Source: Thermoplasmatota archaeon
GTDB taxonomy: Archaea > Thermoplasmatota > Thermoplasmata > Methanomassiliicoccales > Methanomassiliicoccaceae
DNA: 31,367 nucleotides
Assembly (NCBI GenBank): GCA_022709105.1
Contig: JAKIXL010000001.1
Span: 1 to 31,367 of the forward strand
Direction: 5' to 3'
Both the position numbers and the translations under genes were made by a program. The notes under the pieces are model-generated. The model saw only the letters and a program-made list of their open reading frames with translations, was not told where the DNA came from and ran no database searches. Below, piece after piece: positions 9,399-28,917 of this stretch. Numbering within the stretch: the stretch's first letter is position 1; the number at the start of each line of letters is the position of its first letter.

Positions 9399-9749
9399 AT
9401 GTCTAAGCCATATACCGTGCAGCACGCGCCGCTCCTATCATTGGCGATCCTCGCGGCGGGCGCGGTCATGCTGATCGTCGGGACCCTCGATCTGCTGGGC
9501 AACTACTTCCTCGAGATCGGGGCCTGGGGATTTTGGCTAGCCGGGATCGGGGGCGTCATGCTCTTGGTGGGGGCTATCTGGTTCGTGAGCTATCGTCTCA
9601 ACGTGCGTAAGTTCAACAAGCTCATGGAAGAGAAGAGCAAGGCCCTCTTTGTCAAGCGGCTAGATGACGTGGAGTACCTGGCATGGAGATTGCCGGTGAG
9701 CTACGAGGACCGCCTGGCGACCAAGAAGAAGGAATTCGGGATCAAATGA
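9399..9749 (+). CDS. Small two-helix membrane protein (tentatively DUF3198-like)
   Basis: This 116-residue protein has two hydrophobic helices, at about residues 11-33 (APLLSLAILAAGAVMLIVG onward) and 43-65. They are followed by a basic, helical cytoplasmic tail with KFNKLMEEKSKALFVKRLDDVEYLAWRLP and a C-terminal KKKEFGIK. The tight two-helix hairpin plus charged tail reminds me of a small archaeal family of unknown function (DUF3198); that assignment is from memory and unchecked. The start is the ATG at 9399; a GTG in the same frame is less likely. It is the only rightward gene between 3.9 and 11.1 kb. No function can be proposed with confidence. Confidence 0.7.
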   Translation: MSKPYTVQHAPLLSLAILAAGAVMLIVGTLDLLGNYFLEIGAWGFWLAGIGGVMLLVGAIWFVSYRLNVRKFNKLMEEKSKALFVKRLDDVEYLAWRLPVSYEDRLATKKKEFGIK

Positions 9750-9762
9750 GGGGAAAGAGGGG

Positions 9763-9785
9763 GACCCCTCCATTTCCATTGGAAC
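9763..9785 (-). other. Inverted origin-recognition-box-like element
   Basis: The minus strand reads TCCAATGGAAATGGAGGGGT inside this interval. It matches the two boxes at 11372 and 11504 in 19 of 20 core positions and lies in the opposite orientation. It sits in the 108-base gap between the 9399 gene and the convergent hflX stop, 1.6 kb from the main origin. The TCC-AATGGAAA dyad and G-tract fit the euryarchaeal ORB consensus known for Orc1/Cdc6. Confidence 0.75.
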
Positions 9786-9857: not shown

Positions 9858-11123
9858 TCACATCGCCTGGCCGCCCAGGGCCACCACCTGTCTTACTATG
9901 TTGGTGTGGTCCTTCTCCTGGCCGAACAGGTGGACCTCGACCCTATCGCCATATTTCACTTGGACCACCTCGGCATTGGTGTGCAGCCAGGAGAGGAAAG
10001 GTGCCACGCCTTCGCCGTGAGGCAGCTGGAAACGCATCTCCACTGGGTATTGAAAGGTGGCCGCGATCGCGTCGCGGAGAGCGTCCATGCCCTGACCAGT
10101 GAGGGCGGAGACAGTCAGCACCCCGCGTGCCGGTACCAGTTCCGTGGCCAGGTCGGCCTTGGCCTGCATATCGCTGACCAGATCTCTCTTGTTGAGAACA
10201 ATGAGCAGAGATGATGCATCCACCTCAGGGAACAGGATCTCCCGGGACGTCTCCATCTTTCTACGGACCTCTTCCAGGGTGTCCGAGGCGTCGATTATCA
10301 GCAGCACGAGGTCGGCGAAATAGATCTCGTCGACGGTGCTCTTGAAGGACTCGATGAGGAAATGGGGAAGAGCGTCAAGAAAGCCGATGGTGTCGGTGAC
10401 CAGGATCGGCTTGTTCTCCCCCTCCAAACGCCCTATGGTGGTGGTCAGGGTCGAGAACATGCGGTCCTCCACCAGGACCTTCTCTGAGGTGATCGAGTTG
10501 AGGATGGAGGATTTGCCGGCATTTGTATAGCCGGCGAGCGCAACGGTGCTGAACCCTCTTTTTCGGCGTTGTTGGCGGCGGAGCAGGTGATTGATGTCCA
10601 TCCTATGCAGTTCCCCGTCTATCCTGCTGAGCTGTCGTCGGATCAGCTCGTAATAAGCATCGGTCTCATAGGCGCCGCCTCCTAGGAAACCAGGATGCTC
10701 TCCTGTCTTGGCATTGTGTATCCACTCTCGAAGCAGGGGTATCTCGTAGATCAGCTTGGCCCTGAGCACCTGCAGCTTCGATTCGCGGGATGATGCCCGC
10801 TCGGAGAATATATTGAGGACCAGTCGGACGCGGTCGATGCACTCCACTCCCAACTGGCTCTCGAGTAGGTAGTGCTGCGATGGTCTCAGCTCGCCGTTGA
10901 TGATGAGAGCAGATACGGGGGCCATATCCAGTACTTGCTTGACGTCCTTGAGCTTCCCCTTTCCGATGAAGGTTCGGGTGTTCGGGAATCTCCTTCGTTG
11001 GATGATCTCGTATCGCACCTCATAGCCTGCCGAGCGGGCGAGGTCCTCCAGTTCAGAGATATCCTCGTCCAAGGTCACGATAGCGACCAGAGGTCGCCCT
11101 CCCCTTCTAAGGTCGTCCTTCAC
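9858..11123 (-). CDS. hflX: Ribosome-associated GTPase HflX
   Basis: HflX is an OBG-HflX superfamily GTPase that binds the large ribosomal subunit and can split stalled ribosomes. The 421-residue product has the N-terminal nucleotide-binding-like domain (about 1-100, with TFIGKGKLKDVK) and a long coiled helical linker (to about 190). The linker contains GGGAYETDAYYELIRRQL, the family signature. A GTPase domain follows, with P-loop GYTNAGKSS at 198-206, the TTT switch, DTIGF at 244-248 and NKRD at 311-314. A C-terminal domain ends the protein. The start is a GTG complementary to 11121-11123, directly preceded by a purine-rich AAGG repeat that can act as the ribosome binding site. It is transcribed leftward from the origin region. 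Confidence 0.93.
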   Translation of the reverse strand: MKDDLRRGGRPLVAIVTLDEDISELEDLARSAGYEVRYEIIQRRRFPNTRTFIGKGKLKDVKQVLDMAPVSALIINGELRPSQHYLLESQLGVECIDRVRLVLNIFSERASSRESKLQVLRAKLIYEIPLLREWIHNAKTGEHPGFLGGGAYETDAYYELIRRQLSRIDGELHRMDINHLLRRQQRRKRGFSTVALAGYTNAGKSSILNSITSEKVLVEDRMFSTLTTTIGRLEGENKPILVTDTIGFLDALPHFLIESFKSTVDEIYFADLVLLIIDASDTLEEVRRKMETSREILFPEVDASSLLIVLNKRDLVSDMQAKADLATELVPARGVLTVSALTGQGMDALRDAIAATFQYPVEMRFQLPHGEGVAPFLSWLHTNAEVVQVKYGDRVEVHLFGQEKDHTNIVRQVVALGGQAM

Positions 11124-11371: not shown

Positions 11372-11401
11372 TCTCCAATGGAAATGAAGGGGTGGGGGTC
11401 T
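11372..11401 (+). other. Origin recognition box 1
   Basis: This box has the core CCAATGGAAATGAAGGGG followed by a G-rich tail ending GGTCT. It matches box 2 at 28 of 30 positions and resembles the euryarchaeal ORB consensus (TCCAGTGGAAAC-AAAGGGG type). It borders the AT-rich tract on the left. Confidence 0.85.
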
Positions 11402-11480
11402 TATGAGATATTTTTTTAAAAAACCAAATATGCTCTGGACATAACTAAAAGAAAAAGTAAATTATATGCCTTCTATATGT
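11402..11480. other. AT-rich tract, probable duplex unwinding element
   Basis: It has runs such as ATATTTTTTTAAAAAACC and AAAAGAAAAAGTAAATTATA, with about one quarter G+C by my count. It lies exactly between the two ORBs. It also contains the candidate box A elements of orc1 (AAATTATATG near 11459 and TTCTATATG near 11471). Confidence 0.7.
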
Positions 11481-11503
11481 GTCCAAGGAAGGGCCCCGGC
11501 CGC

Positions 11504-11533
11504 TCTCCAATGGAAATGAAGGGGTAGCGGTCT
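11504..11533 (+). other. Origin recognition box 2
   Basis: This box has the same core CCAATGGAAATGAAGGGG as box 1, differing at only two of 30 positions. It lies 31 bases before the orc1/cdc6 start, about where transcription of that gene should begin, so initiator binding here could also repress its own gene. Confidence 0.85.
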
Positions 11534-11563: not shown

Positions 11564-12799
11564 GTGGACGAAAGCATATTCCAGCCGTACTTGAACGCGA
11601 AGAAGATTTTCCAACGCAATCGAGAGATCCTCCGACCGTCCTATATTCCTGACGAACTCCCCCACCGCAAGGAACAGATCAATCAGCTCGCGTCGATCCT
11701 GGTGACCGCATTGCGCGGCGACCGGCCGTCCAACGTCCTTATCTTCGGTAAGACCGGCACCGGCAAGACCGCATCGGTGAAGTACTTGGGGAAAGAGATC
11801 CAGAAGGCCGACTCCAAGTTCAACCGCGTGACCTACCTGTACATGAACTGCGAGGTCGTCGACACTCAGTATGGCGTTCTCCAGAACATCGGCAACATGT
11901 TCATCGGCGATTTCAATGAGCGCATACCCTTCACCGGATGGAGCACTGAAAGGGTCTACAACATCCTCAGGGAGAAGATCGACGACACCAACAGGGTCGT
12001 GATCCTCGTGCTCGACGAGATAGACAAGCTCGTGTACAAGTCGGGAGACGACGTGCTGTACCACCTGTCCAGGATCAATGATGACCTCCAGCGGGCGAAG
12101 GTATCGCTCATCGGCATCTCCAACGACCTCAAGTTCACAGAGTTCCTCGATCCCCGGGTCAAGAGCCGCCTGGGAGAGGAGAAGATGGTGTTCCCTCCAT
12201 ATAACGCGGAGCAGCTCAAGGACATCCTGAAGCAACGGTCCGACCTGGCGTTCTTCAGCGGCGTCGTCGAGCCTGCGGTGGCGCCGCTTTGCTCGGCCCT
12301 GGCGGCGCAGGAGCACGGGGACGCCCGGCGAGCGCTCGACCTACTAAGGGTGGCGGCCGAGATCGCCGAGCGCAACGGCGACGACAAGGTCACCGAGGCG
12401 CATGTTTACAAGGCCAAGAACAAGATCGAACTGGACTGCGTCACCGAGGCCATACGGACGCTGCCGACGCAGTCGAAGCTGGTCCTCATGAGCATACTTC
12501 TCAACGAGGACCGAGGGGACGGACGGCTGACCACCGGCGATGTCTACGAGACCTACAGGGAGCTGAGCCAGATAATTGGCGTCACCGTGCTCACCCAACG
12601 CCGCGTCACCGACCTCATCTCCGAGCTGGACATGCTCGGCATAATACATGCCAGGGTCAAGTCCTTCGGGCGGGGCGGGCGGACGAAGGAGATAGAGTCC
12701 TCGGTGCCGAGGGTGGAAACGAAGAAGATCCTTGAGGACGACGAGATCCTGCAGGGCATCAGGAACTATCGGCCCAAGAACCAGACGACCCTTATCTGA
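11564..12799 (+). CDS. cdc6: Replication initiator Orc1/Cdc6
   Basis: This AAA+ protein binds origin recognition boxes and loads the MCM helicase. The 411-residue product shows Walker A GKTGTGKT at 62-69, Walker B LVLDEID at 148-154 and a sensor 1 segment GISND. A sensor 2/lid region with ARRALDLLRVAAEIA follows. The C-terminal winged helix has LTTGDVYETY, TQRRVTDLISELDMLG and the wing SFGRGGRTKE, the part that reads the ORB G-tract. The start is a GTG at 11564, with GGGGGAGAG 3-11 bases before it; no better ATG exists. It lies immediately next to the ORBs, the usual arrangement for the Orc1 type that controls the main origin. Confidence 0.95.
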   Translation: MDESIFQPYLNAKKIFQRNREILRPSYIPDELPHRKEQINQLASILVTALRGDRPSNVLIFGKTGTGKTASVKYLGKEIQKADSKFNRVTYLYMNCEVVDTQYGVLQNIGNMFIGDFNERIPFTGWSTERVYNILREKIDDTNRVVILVLDEIDKLVYKSGDDVLYHLSRINDDLQRAKVSLIGISNDLKFTEFLDPRVKSRLGEEKMVFPPYNAEQLKDILKQRSDLAFFSGVVEPAVAPLCSALAAQEHGDARRALDLLRVAAEIAERNGDDKVTEAHVYKAKNKIELDCVTEAIRTLPTQSKLVLMSILLNEDRGDGRLTTGDVYETYRELSQIIGVTVLTQRRVTDLISELDMLGIIHARVKSFGRGGRTKEIESSVPRVETKKILEDDEILQGIRNYRPKNQTTLI

Positions 12800-12817: not shown

Positions 12818-13696
12818 TCATTCATTGCGCCCGGAGCGTCCCCGCACGACCGCTTGAAGGACGTCGATGGCGATGGGGACGACAATGATCAGGGCGAGCG
12901 CGATCACCAGGTCAACCTTGCTGTTCTCCGGAGTGTAGTCCGGCGCGGTGCCGGTGGCATACAGCTTGATGAGCCCGAACCATGGCAGCTCGCCTCTGGC
13001 CTTGCCAACGATCCACTCGCTCTTTATCGGCTCCCTCATCGAGCCCAGCCATCTCTGGTCGTACTTGCCCAAGAGGGTGCCGTCGACGCCCGTGTAATAG
13101 TTGTTGTCGCCCATGGTGATGAGCCCGCCGTGCGGTTCCCCGGAGTATGCCGGCGATCTCATGTAATCCAGCATGGCCTTTAGGTCGATGATGACGGTCA
13201 CCTTCAGGAACCCGATGCCGTACAGCTCCACGCTGTCCTTAAGGTTCCACCAGGCCCGGTCGCCGCCCGGCACGGACCACATCGATGCCGGCACGTTCGC
13301 CAGCTCAGGAACATCGAACCCACCGCCGGTGGCGTTGTACTCCAGCGCCGCGATTGCTCTATGTATTATCGGCCGGCTCATCCCGCTCTTATGGTATATG
13401 ATGACGTCCCCCGGCTCTCCATACGTCGAATGGCCGGTGGCCACGCCTCTCAGATATGTCACCACCTCATCGGCCGAGCCCACCGACCTCACCATCACTA
13501 TGTCGCCGGTGTCAATTACCCCGATGGAGCTCCGGTCGGAGTGCTGCATGCTCTTCGACTCAACGACCACCATGGGAGGCCACACTCCACTGTAGGCATA
13601 GATGCCCCCCACGAGAACGATGAAAATGACCGGGGCGATGATGAACGGTTTGAGCTTGTACCACCGTCCTTGAGAGCCGCTCTGCCTGGATGGCAC
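12818..13696 (-). CDS. Signal peptidase I, archaeal/ER type (S26B)
   Basis: This membrane serine protease removes signal peptides from exported proteins. With the GTG start chosen the product has 292 residues. The N-terminal helix spans about 16-35 (PFIIAPVIFIVLVGGIYAYSG) and a second hydrophobic helix lies near the C-terminus (about 264-282). Catalytic candidates are S49 in VESKSMQHSD, H112 in RPIIHRAI and D197 in ITMGDNN. A His in place of the bacterial Lys is the S26B feature. The frame is open upstream to 13828, but that part overlaps the divergent dCMP deaminase. The GTG complementary to 13694-13696 lies about 27 bases from a box A, fitting a leaderless message. At roughly 290 residues it is longer than many archaeal homologues, with an insert between H112 and D197. 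Confidence 0.85.
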   Translation of the reverse strand: MPSRQSGSQGRWYKLKPFIIAPVIFIVLVGGIYAYSGVWPPMVVVESKSMQHSDRSSIGVIDTGDIVMVRSVGSADEVVTYLRGVATGHSTYGEPGDVIIYHKSGMSRPIIHRAIAALEYNATGGGFDVPELANVPASMWSVPGGDRAWWNLKDSVELYGIGFLKVTVIIDLKAMLDYMRSPAYSGEPHGGLITMGDNNYYTGVDGTLLGKYDQRWLGSMREPIKSEWIVGKARGELPWFGLIKLYATGTAPDYTPENSKVDLVIALALIIVVPIAIDVLQAVVRGRSGRNE

Positions 13697-13714
13697 GAGG
13701 TCACACAAAGGGGG

Positions 13715-13730
13715 AGATAGTATAATACTC
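13715..13730 (-). promoter_or_regulatory. Promoter of the signal peptidase gene
   Basis: The minus strand reads GAGTATTATACTATCT, a clear box A about 27 bases before the GTG at 13696. This spacing supports that start over the more upstream in-frame ATG. Confidence 0.6.
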
Positions 13731-13781
13731 TTAGCGACCGGGTACCGTACGAACGCTCCCTTAAGGCGGCACAAGTTAGAT

Positions 13782-14276
13782 ATGCCGAAGGACGGATGGA
13801 CGGGCATGGAGCGGCCGGACAACGACACCTACTTCATGAGGATGGCCGAGCTAGTGGCCACCCGTTCCACATGCCTGAGGCGCAACGTAGGAGCGGTGGT
13901 GGTCAAGGAGAAGCGAGTGCTGACCACTGGATACAACGGGGCGCCCAAGGGGCTCAGGCACTGCGGGGAGGTAGGCTGCGTCCGCATGCAGAACCACGTG
14001 GAGTCCGGCACCCGCCACGAGCTGTGCCGGGGGGTCCACGCGGAGCAGAACGCCGTGATCCAAGCGGCCTACTTTGGGGTTAGCATCAAGGACTCTACCA
14101 TTTACACCACCAACTTCCCATGCGTCATGTGCGCCAAGATCCTGGTGAACGCCGGCATCCGCGAGATCGTATACAAGGACGATTACATCGACGAGCTCTC
14201 GAGGAGGGTGCTCGATGAGAGCGGGGTCGTGGTCCGTAGGTTCGGTTCCCGAGCGGCCGAGCGCCCTAACGAGTAA
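13782..14276 (+). CDS. dCMP deaminase (zinc cytidine/deoxycytidylate deaminase family)
   Basis: It converts dCMP to dUMP, the substrate of thymidylate synthase. The 164-residue enzyme has the zinc site HAE at H86-E88 in GVHAEQNAVIQA and the PCxxC motif at C114/C117 in NFPCVMCAKIL. YNGAPKGLRHC and the extra Cys/His-rich loop (CGEVGC, CRGVH) are usual for dCMP rather than cytidine deaminases. The ATG at 13782 is used; a second ATG at 13806 (MERPDNDTYFM) lies nearer the usual family start and cannot be excluded. It is divergent from signal peptidase and lies upstream of the ATP synthase operon, separated by 150 bases with a separate promoter. Confidence 0.92.
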   Translation: MPKDGWTGMERPDNDTYFMRMAELVATRSTCLRRNVGAVVVKEKRVLTTGYNGAPKGLRHCGEVGCVRMQNHVESGTRHELCRGVHAEQNAVIQAAYFGVSIKDSTIYTTNFPCVMCAKILVNAGIREIVYKDDYIDELSRRVLDESGVVVRRFGSRAAERPNE

Positions 14277-28832: not shown

Positions 28833-28847
28833 CAGACTAATAAAACA
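28833..28847 (-). promoter_or_regulatory. Promoter of the CYTH gene
   Basis: The minus strand reads ATTGTTTTATTAGTC, a box A about 27 bases before the double-Met start, giving an essentially leaderless message. Confidence 0.5.
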
Positions 28848-28901
28848 ATGGCATTTCTATTCATGTGGAATTAAAAATTCACTTTATTGAAAATCAGAAG
28901 T

Positions 28902-28917
28902 ATACATATTTATAGAA
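28902..28917 (+). promoter_or_regulatory. Promoter of the pilin-like surface protein gene
   Basis: ATACATATTTATAGAA is a strong box A within an AT-rich stretch (about 28850-28920). The implied leader is about 35 bases and includes a GGTGGTG site before the ATG at 28969. Confidence 0.6.

Follow-up and report, generated by a model that had tools for sequence, protein, structure and literature searches.

Origin recognition boxes (ORBs) at the cdc6.1 gene of Methanomassiliicoccales were predicted in 2014 by Borrel et al. (PMC4153887), whose Table 2 has them flanking cdc6.1 in Ca. M. alvus and, for Ca. M. intestinalis, lists two inverted boxes separated by 256 bp; for M. luminyensis the same paper gives only two proximal boxes, which it calls an inverted pair. 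For ISO4-H5, two ORBs have been placed downstream of cdc6.1 (PMC5011839). At oriC1 of Haloarcula hispanica the loss of either ORB impairs the origin, and the legend describing this origin gives a C-run for one G-string and a G-run for the other (PMC3936714). According to a legend in PMC4010727, cdc6 is accompanied at the mapped haloarchaeal oriC1 by genes for a GTP-binding protein and a signal peptidase. Each ORB of Sulfolobus oriC1 binds an Orc1-1 monomer with defined polarity (PMC12141716), and in budding yeast two inverted ORC sites each load one MCM ring, with independently loaded rings being able to move and meet (PMC12440816).

The window that we analysed, a stretch of 31,367 nt from a methane-producing archaeon (Thermoplasmatota) whose relatives place it in Methanomassiliicoccaceae, carries three boxes upstream of a cdc6 gene (Table 1) that, judged from their sequence, are origin recognition boxes of a probable chromosome replication origin. 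A first-pass annotation of this DNA had described two 30-base elements that point the same way, differ at two positions and enclose a 79-base AT-rich tract directly upstream of orc1/cdc6, all of which we could confirm; the core it gave for the two elements is also present, although the identical stretch, which comprises their first 22 nt, is longer than it had stated. These two boxes, ORB2 and ORB3, emerged from the repeat search as a 30-nt unit identical at 28 of 30 positions (93%), on the same strand and at a spacing of 132. All three boxes have the TCCA-GGAAA dyad and the G-tract expected of an ORB, as seen on visual comparison with the consensus that PMC4153887 gives in its Table 2, and the annotation's reading of its elements as ORBs thus agrees with the published consensus for Methanomassiliicoccales and for archaea. 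Its picture of the origin as two same-direction boxes, on the other hand, does not hold, since a third, inverted and conserved box is found 1.6 kb upstream, past the hflX gene. This box, ORB1, lies between two convergent reading frames, an ORF of 116 aa (9399-9749, +) and hflX, and forms with ORB2 an inverted pair that is 1591 bp apart, has its G-tracts facing outward and has hflX between its members.

Table 1. Predicted origin boxes, genes and AT-rich elements at the cdc6 locus (window coordinates)
Feature	Position	Strand	Basis and remarks
ORB1, predicted inverted distal ORB	9756..9784 (core 9764-9783)	-	pattern searches and relatives' alignment; conserved palindromic GGGGTCCCCCTC extension
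hflX (GTPase), enclosed by ORB1 and ORB2	9858..11123	-	TIGR03156, 270 bits against a cut-off of 216.75; GTP-bdg_N, GTP-bdg_M, MMR_HSR1
ORB2, predicted cdc6-proximal partner of ORB1	11372..11401	+	repeat search, pattern and alignment; carries TGGGGGTC extension
AT-rich tract, 79 nt	11402..11480		77.2% AT; A/T run 11410-11423 absent from six aligned close relatives
Probable cdc6 promoter element, A-rich, TATA-like	11452..11466	+	best-conserved ORB2-ORB3 stretch in an alignment of seven
ORB3, predicted second same-direction box	11504..11533	+	repeat search; its end is 30 nt ahead of the cdc6 start codon; presence varies with lineage
orc1/cdc6.1 initiator	11564..12799	+	NF001625 (595 bits, cut-off 501); Cdc6_C, Cdc6_lid

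We rejected chance clustering of the three boxes, given that a degenerate ORB pattern with two mismatches allowed matches the window three times against 0.14 expected, that none of 100 shuffles reached three matches, and that the control scans were near-empty. Repeat and pattern searches found no further ORB copies in the window. The source assembly comprises 1.79 Mb in 319 contigs and is 80% complete, and our whole-genome box searches cover that part alone; within it, the 20-nt core with up to three mismatches recovered ORB2 and ORB3 without mismatch and ORB1 with one, its sole other match being one site with three mismatches on a different contig, and the reversed 20-mer used as a control had no match. 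The pattern search also found no ORB by the second cdc6 paralogue (G000 contig 308). By sequence, the solved chains nearest to the window Orc1 are the Cdc6 homologues 2qby_A (Cdc6 homolog 1), which we take to be a Sulfolobus protein, and 2v1u_A, and the closest named Orc1, 96% identical, is that of Methanomassiliicoccus sp. UBA6 (L007). We note that a Pfam search of the ORF located 3' of cdc6 (12818-13828, -), with E values of up to 1 allowed, gave no match, and that this ORF contains, by eye, an MGDN stretch typical of signal peptidase I.

Motif searches in the cdc6 upstream regions of close relatives found both ORB2 and ORB3 there, and a wider comparison brings out the pair formed by ORB1 and ORB2. 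We gathered 114 loci, comprising the window, 80 loci and 33 stretches from further relatives, and scored them at thresholds of 9 and 13 bits with a 24-position matrix for which 108 different exact-pattern boxes were used. Because these boxes come from the same loci, high scores are in part circular, but position and strand did not enter the matrix; when all loci were scanned in reversed and in complemented form as a control, there was no match at 13 bits and a single one at 9. The hflX gene lies within 3.2 kb upstream of cdc6 in 57 loci, two of which (L019, L025) lack the far side, leaving 55 that could be assessed. In 54 of the 55, a minus-strand box scoring at least 9 bits lies beyond the far end of hflX and no more than 520 nt from it (51 of these boxes reach 13 bits), and all 55 have a plus-strand box between hflX and cdc6 (54 of them with at least 13 bits); both members of the pair reached at least 13 bits in 50 loci, and a plus-strand box occupied the far position past hflX in 0 of 55. 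The distance between ORB1 and ORB2 in hflX-bearing loci ranges from 1280 to 2194 bp, with a median of 1443.5. Exceptions are L023, which is without ORB1, L026, L030 and L035, where ORB1 reaches only 9.0-12.5 bits, and L074, where both boxes are weak and one extends into masked bases. When the window is aligned with eight relatives, ORB1 is nearly invariant together with its GGGGGACCCC extension, and its flanks are variable. As judged by comparison, then, what relatives conserve as a unit is ORB1(-)...ORB2(+), two inverted boxes that face outward and have a gene between them. The extensions of the two boxes, compared in the window at 9756-9768 (left box) and 11391-11399 (right box), are of C-type on the left (GGGGTCCCCC) and G-type on the right (GGGGTGGGGG) in 34 of 35 hflX-bearing loci of the order outside family f2 and its sister lineage; in f2 itself both are G-type in 12 of 13 loci.

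The DNA enclosed by the pair differs among lineages. In L124 (G018) hflX is reversed inside the pair, whose members are 1280 bp apart with ORB2 overlapping the last hflX codons; besides the ORB at the hflX end, another full ORB in G018 lies in the tiaS coding sequence (L124 2831-2849, 5223-5249). L032 and L051, which are without hflX, have inverted pairs 2170 and 1788 bp apart, and in L016 (G007) the pair is separated by 255 bp with an interior of 79% AT, its left and right extension types being those of its family. We sought hflX in 19 genomes at E ≤ 1e-10, a search that recovered both expected positives (G000, G027); at this threshold hflX was not found in G007 or in any of the 16 f2 genomes tested. 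Family f2, which we infer to be Methanomethylophilaceae, accounts for 19 of the 61 genomes, one of hflX type (G047), 14 whose loci were read and four assessed by pattern search. In G047 (locus L037) hflX is still inside the pair, as it is in L029, which is labelled Methanomethylophilaceae, and in all 14 f2 loci read that are without hflX the minus-strand box lies ~277-430 bp upstream of cdc6 and the plus-strand box just past its stop, cdc6 being the enclosed gene. In G051, G029, G023 and G045 the pattern search placed boxes on fitting strands at two contig ends, with the end confirmed for G051. A quick tree of 110 Orc1 proteins shows the cdc6-enclosing state as one change with a branch support of 100, and the hflX-enclosing state occurs on both sides of the midpoint root, which suggests that it is ancestral. 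Since the pair persists across hflX, reversed hflX, cdc6 and 255 bp of AT-rich DNA, it appears that the mirrored pair is kept and its contents change. This arrangement is not universal in the class, in that no inverted pair was assigned in 43 of the 110 tree loci (22 boxless, 10 with plus-strand boxes only, 8 truncated, and 3 that have no ORB1 or do not extend to the far side). We found nothing convincing in the way of ORB-like cores within 700 nt upstream of cdc6 in 28 distant Thermoplasmata loci that are boxless at 13 bits, and those lineages fall outside the conserved-pair claim.

Comparison shows the boxes, the way they point, and that they have persisted as the DNA between them changed. 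We consider it likely that the locus is a cdc6-linked chromosomal origin of the oriC1 type, predicted to consist of the inverted ORB1/ORB2 pair spanning hflX together with an extra promoter-proximal ORB3. At such an origin Orc1 would bind each box with fixed polarity, and the two mirrored boxes would load two MCM rings facing opposite ways, or set them in position, on the intervening DNA; ORB3 may add initiator, or let Orc1 repress its own gene, or both. Given the distance from ORB1 to ORB2, the MCM rings would, by analogy with other systems, need sliding or looping. A tentative extension of this reading is that the origin is split, with mirrored Orc1 sites 1.3-2.2 kb apart each loading one MCM ring and the rings meeting, or being brought together by looping, inside a gene, such that selection would hold the pair in place while its contents are swapped.

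It is conceivable, if unlikely, that the origin proper is instead the compact segment made up of ORB2, the AT-rich DNA and ORB3, with ORB1 as an accessory. This segment directly adjoins cdc6, its boxes are closely spaced (132-147 nt in family members measured), and its gap is AT-rich in the window, where GC content is 0.52-0.67 in 1-kb steps, the whole 102-nt gap has 65% AT and the 79-nt tract ranks second for AT among all 79-mers (the top one, 28836-28914, has 78.5% AT). Across six close relatives the gap has 0.40-0.59 AT, an excess over the locus of 0.00-0.17 compared with 0.21 in the window; L007 still has 0.56 AT against 0.39 for its locus, but the gap of the other five is only 0.00-0.10 above locus AT, and none of the six retains the A/T run. 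The conserved A-rich stretch of the gap, a TATA-like element ~100 nt ahead of the cdc6 start codon, looks like the cdc6 promoter and would probably have that function. With its A/T run absent from relatives and its conserved part resembling a promoter, the tract makes a poor candidate melting element. ORB3 also appears to be optional, since a box at -80 to -45 from cdc6 scoring at least 13 bits is present in 31 of the 55 hflX-bearing loci, a count that is off by a few at most, as the cdc6 start is out of register in L069 and L070. In genera g6 and g13 of family f3 no ORB3 was found even at 9 bits, whereas ORB1 and ORB2 are retained, and 13 f2 loci are without such a direct pair upstream of cdc6. 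As for AT-rich DNA more generally, an AT-rich element flanked directly by the inverted pair is clear in L016; the most AT-rich 60-mer lies inside the pair in 41 of 53 loci, a figure confounded by promoters and terminators, and outside it in the window. A 60-mer of 0.80-0.92 AT, which a terminator may explain, is present just inside ORB1 in eight loci of f3 genus g6. In three f3 genomes (L131, L127, L125), whose loci have 50-55% GC around it, a 60-mer of 88-90% AT lies within the hflX coding region near -1202 from the cdc6 start.

We regard as more doubtful still the idea that ORB1 is a titration or regulatory site, comparable to oriC2D of H. hispanica or to datA, and not a core element of the origin. 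A negative element of this kind is known in haloarchaea, where the ORB-rich oriC2D lies downstream of cdc6E (PMC3936714), and ORB1 is situated away from cdc6 and differs from ORB2 in its extension in 34 of the 35 loci outside f2 and its sister lineage. Titration, however, needs no fixed orientation or place, whereas the strand of ORB1 is kept in 54 of 55 loci and the pair is kept even at a separation of 255 bp. In support of the oriC1-type reading, most boxes are found near the initiator gene: the exact ORB pattern has 116 matches in the 61 genomes, of which 102 are at the cdc6.1 locus (97 within 3 kb of cdc6.1, four at contig ends, and one, G004:C167:13607, that is the ORB1 of G004 and adjoins the end of hflX at a contig break). 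The pattern had no match in 10 of the 61 genomes. Another 14 matches are away from cdc6.1, in G002, G015, G020, G024, G026 (two), G032, G039, G047, G050, G053, G054, G057 and G059, and these could possibly be secondary origins or titration sites.

Weak GC skew is common in archaea, and we therefore count skew as a supporting and not a defining trait of an origin. Sampled in three relatives, GC skew has no inflection at cdc6 (G001 contig 1, 400 of 609 kb; G027, 800 of 1818 kb; G051, 400 of 1461 kb), and the cumulative skew of G027 is flat at cdc6 and peaks near 1.44 Mb. The annotation had gone as far as to call the locus an active origin, which these profiles do not support as stated; among the matches listed for the open-licence PMC literature, no replication data for Methanomassiliicoccales turned up. 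The least probable of the readings is that the boxes are Orc1 operators for cdc6 and hflX, with replication starting elsewhere or being origin-free, as reported for some Thermococcales: ORB3 lies just downstream of the cdc6 TATA-like element, the three relatives sampled have no skew inflection and origin-independent replication has been reported in Thermococcus, but loci without hflX retain both boxes, and ORB1 is no conserved hflX operator because in all 54 loci it lies past the 3' end of hflX, save L124, where it lies before the start of the reversed gene. We likewise rejected an hflX operator or terminator role for ORB1 as such, because hflX is flipped in L124 and the search did not detect it in G007 or in the 16 f2 genomes tested.

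How helicases come to be placed facing in opposite directions at one origin is a central question, and the predicted origin described here offers a natural series in which the pair spans 1.3-2.2 kb including a gene in many relatives and 255 bp in a same-family relative. Such a series would make it possible to test whether paired sites have to be near one another, whether they have to surround the place of melting, or whether they still work when far apart. The findings also correct the annotation of origins in the order, as a search of the gap upstream of cdc6 alone misses half of the pair.

The nearest counterparts are the predictions of PMC4153887, which concern the same order, the same initiator and the same ORB consensus as the window, and the 255-bp pair of L016 resembles the 256-bp pair that this paper gives for Ca. 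M. intestinalis. The box it lists as ORB1 of M. luminyensis is the reverse complement of the ORB3 stretch in L118 (from G009, which appears to be M. luminyensis). As the same stretch can be read on either strand, the dyad is close to symmetrical and direction comes from the G-tract alone; by the G-tract, both M. luminyensis boxes listed there point the same way, unlike their label. The far box past hflX (at -1805 in L118) is missing from the M. luminyensis list, hflX does not occur in the text of PMC4153887, and its Genome replication section does not remark on a gene-enclosing pair. Nor was the far box or such a pair named in any paper found in the open-licence PMC literature, as represented largely by titles and the starts of abstracts. 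ORBs at cdc6.1 in the order were already known, and what appears to be new, from sequence comparison, is that a further box lies beyond hflX and that a pair enclosing a gene is conserved as a unit.

Beyond the order, oriC1 of H. hispanica, with inverted ORBs bearing G-strings beside cdc6, is similar to the arrangement in the window, but its pair directly flanks an AT-rich element whereas the pair in the window encloses a gene (PMC3936714). If its ORBs are numbered from left to right, the wording of the legend implies that the G-strings face outward, matching the polarity of ORB1 and ORB2. The haloarchaeal gene context (PMC4010727) also resembles the order of hflX, cdc6 and the downstream ORF here, although we do not equate its GTP-binding-protein gene with hflX. 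Sulfolobus oriC1 likewise contains an inverted pair, ORB2/ORB3, each member of which is individually needed, but its whole ORB3-DUE-ORB2 region measures 130 bp compared with the 1.28-2.19 kb over which the pair extends here (PMC12141716). In yeast, synthetic ORC sites have been separated by 10-300 bp, with efficiency falling beyond ~90 bp, again well short of the 1.28-2.19 kb here (PMC12440816). Nevertheless, by analogy, it is possible that ORB1 and ORB2 set opposite MCM rings in these archaea in the way that the inverted ORC sites of yeast do.
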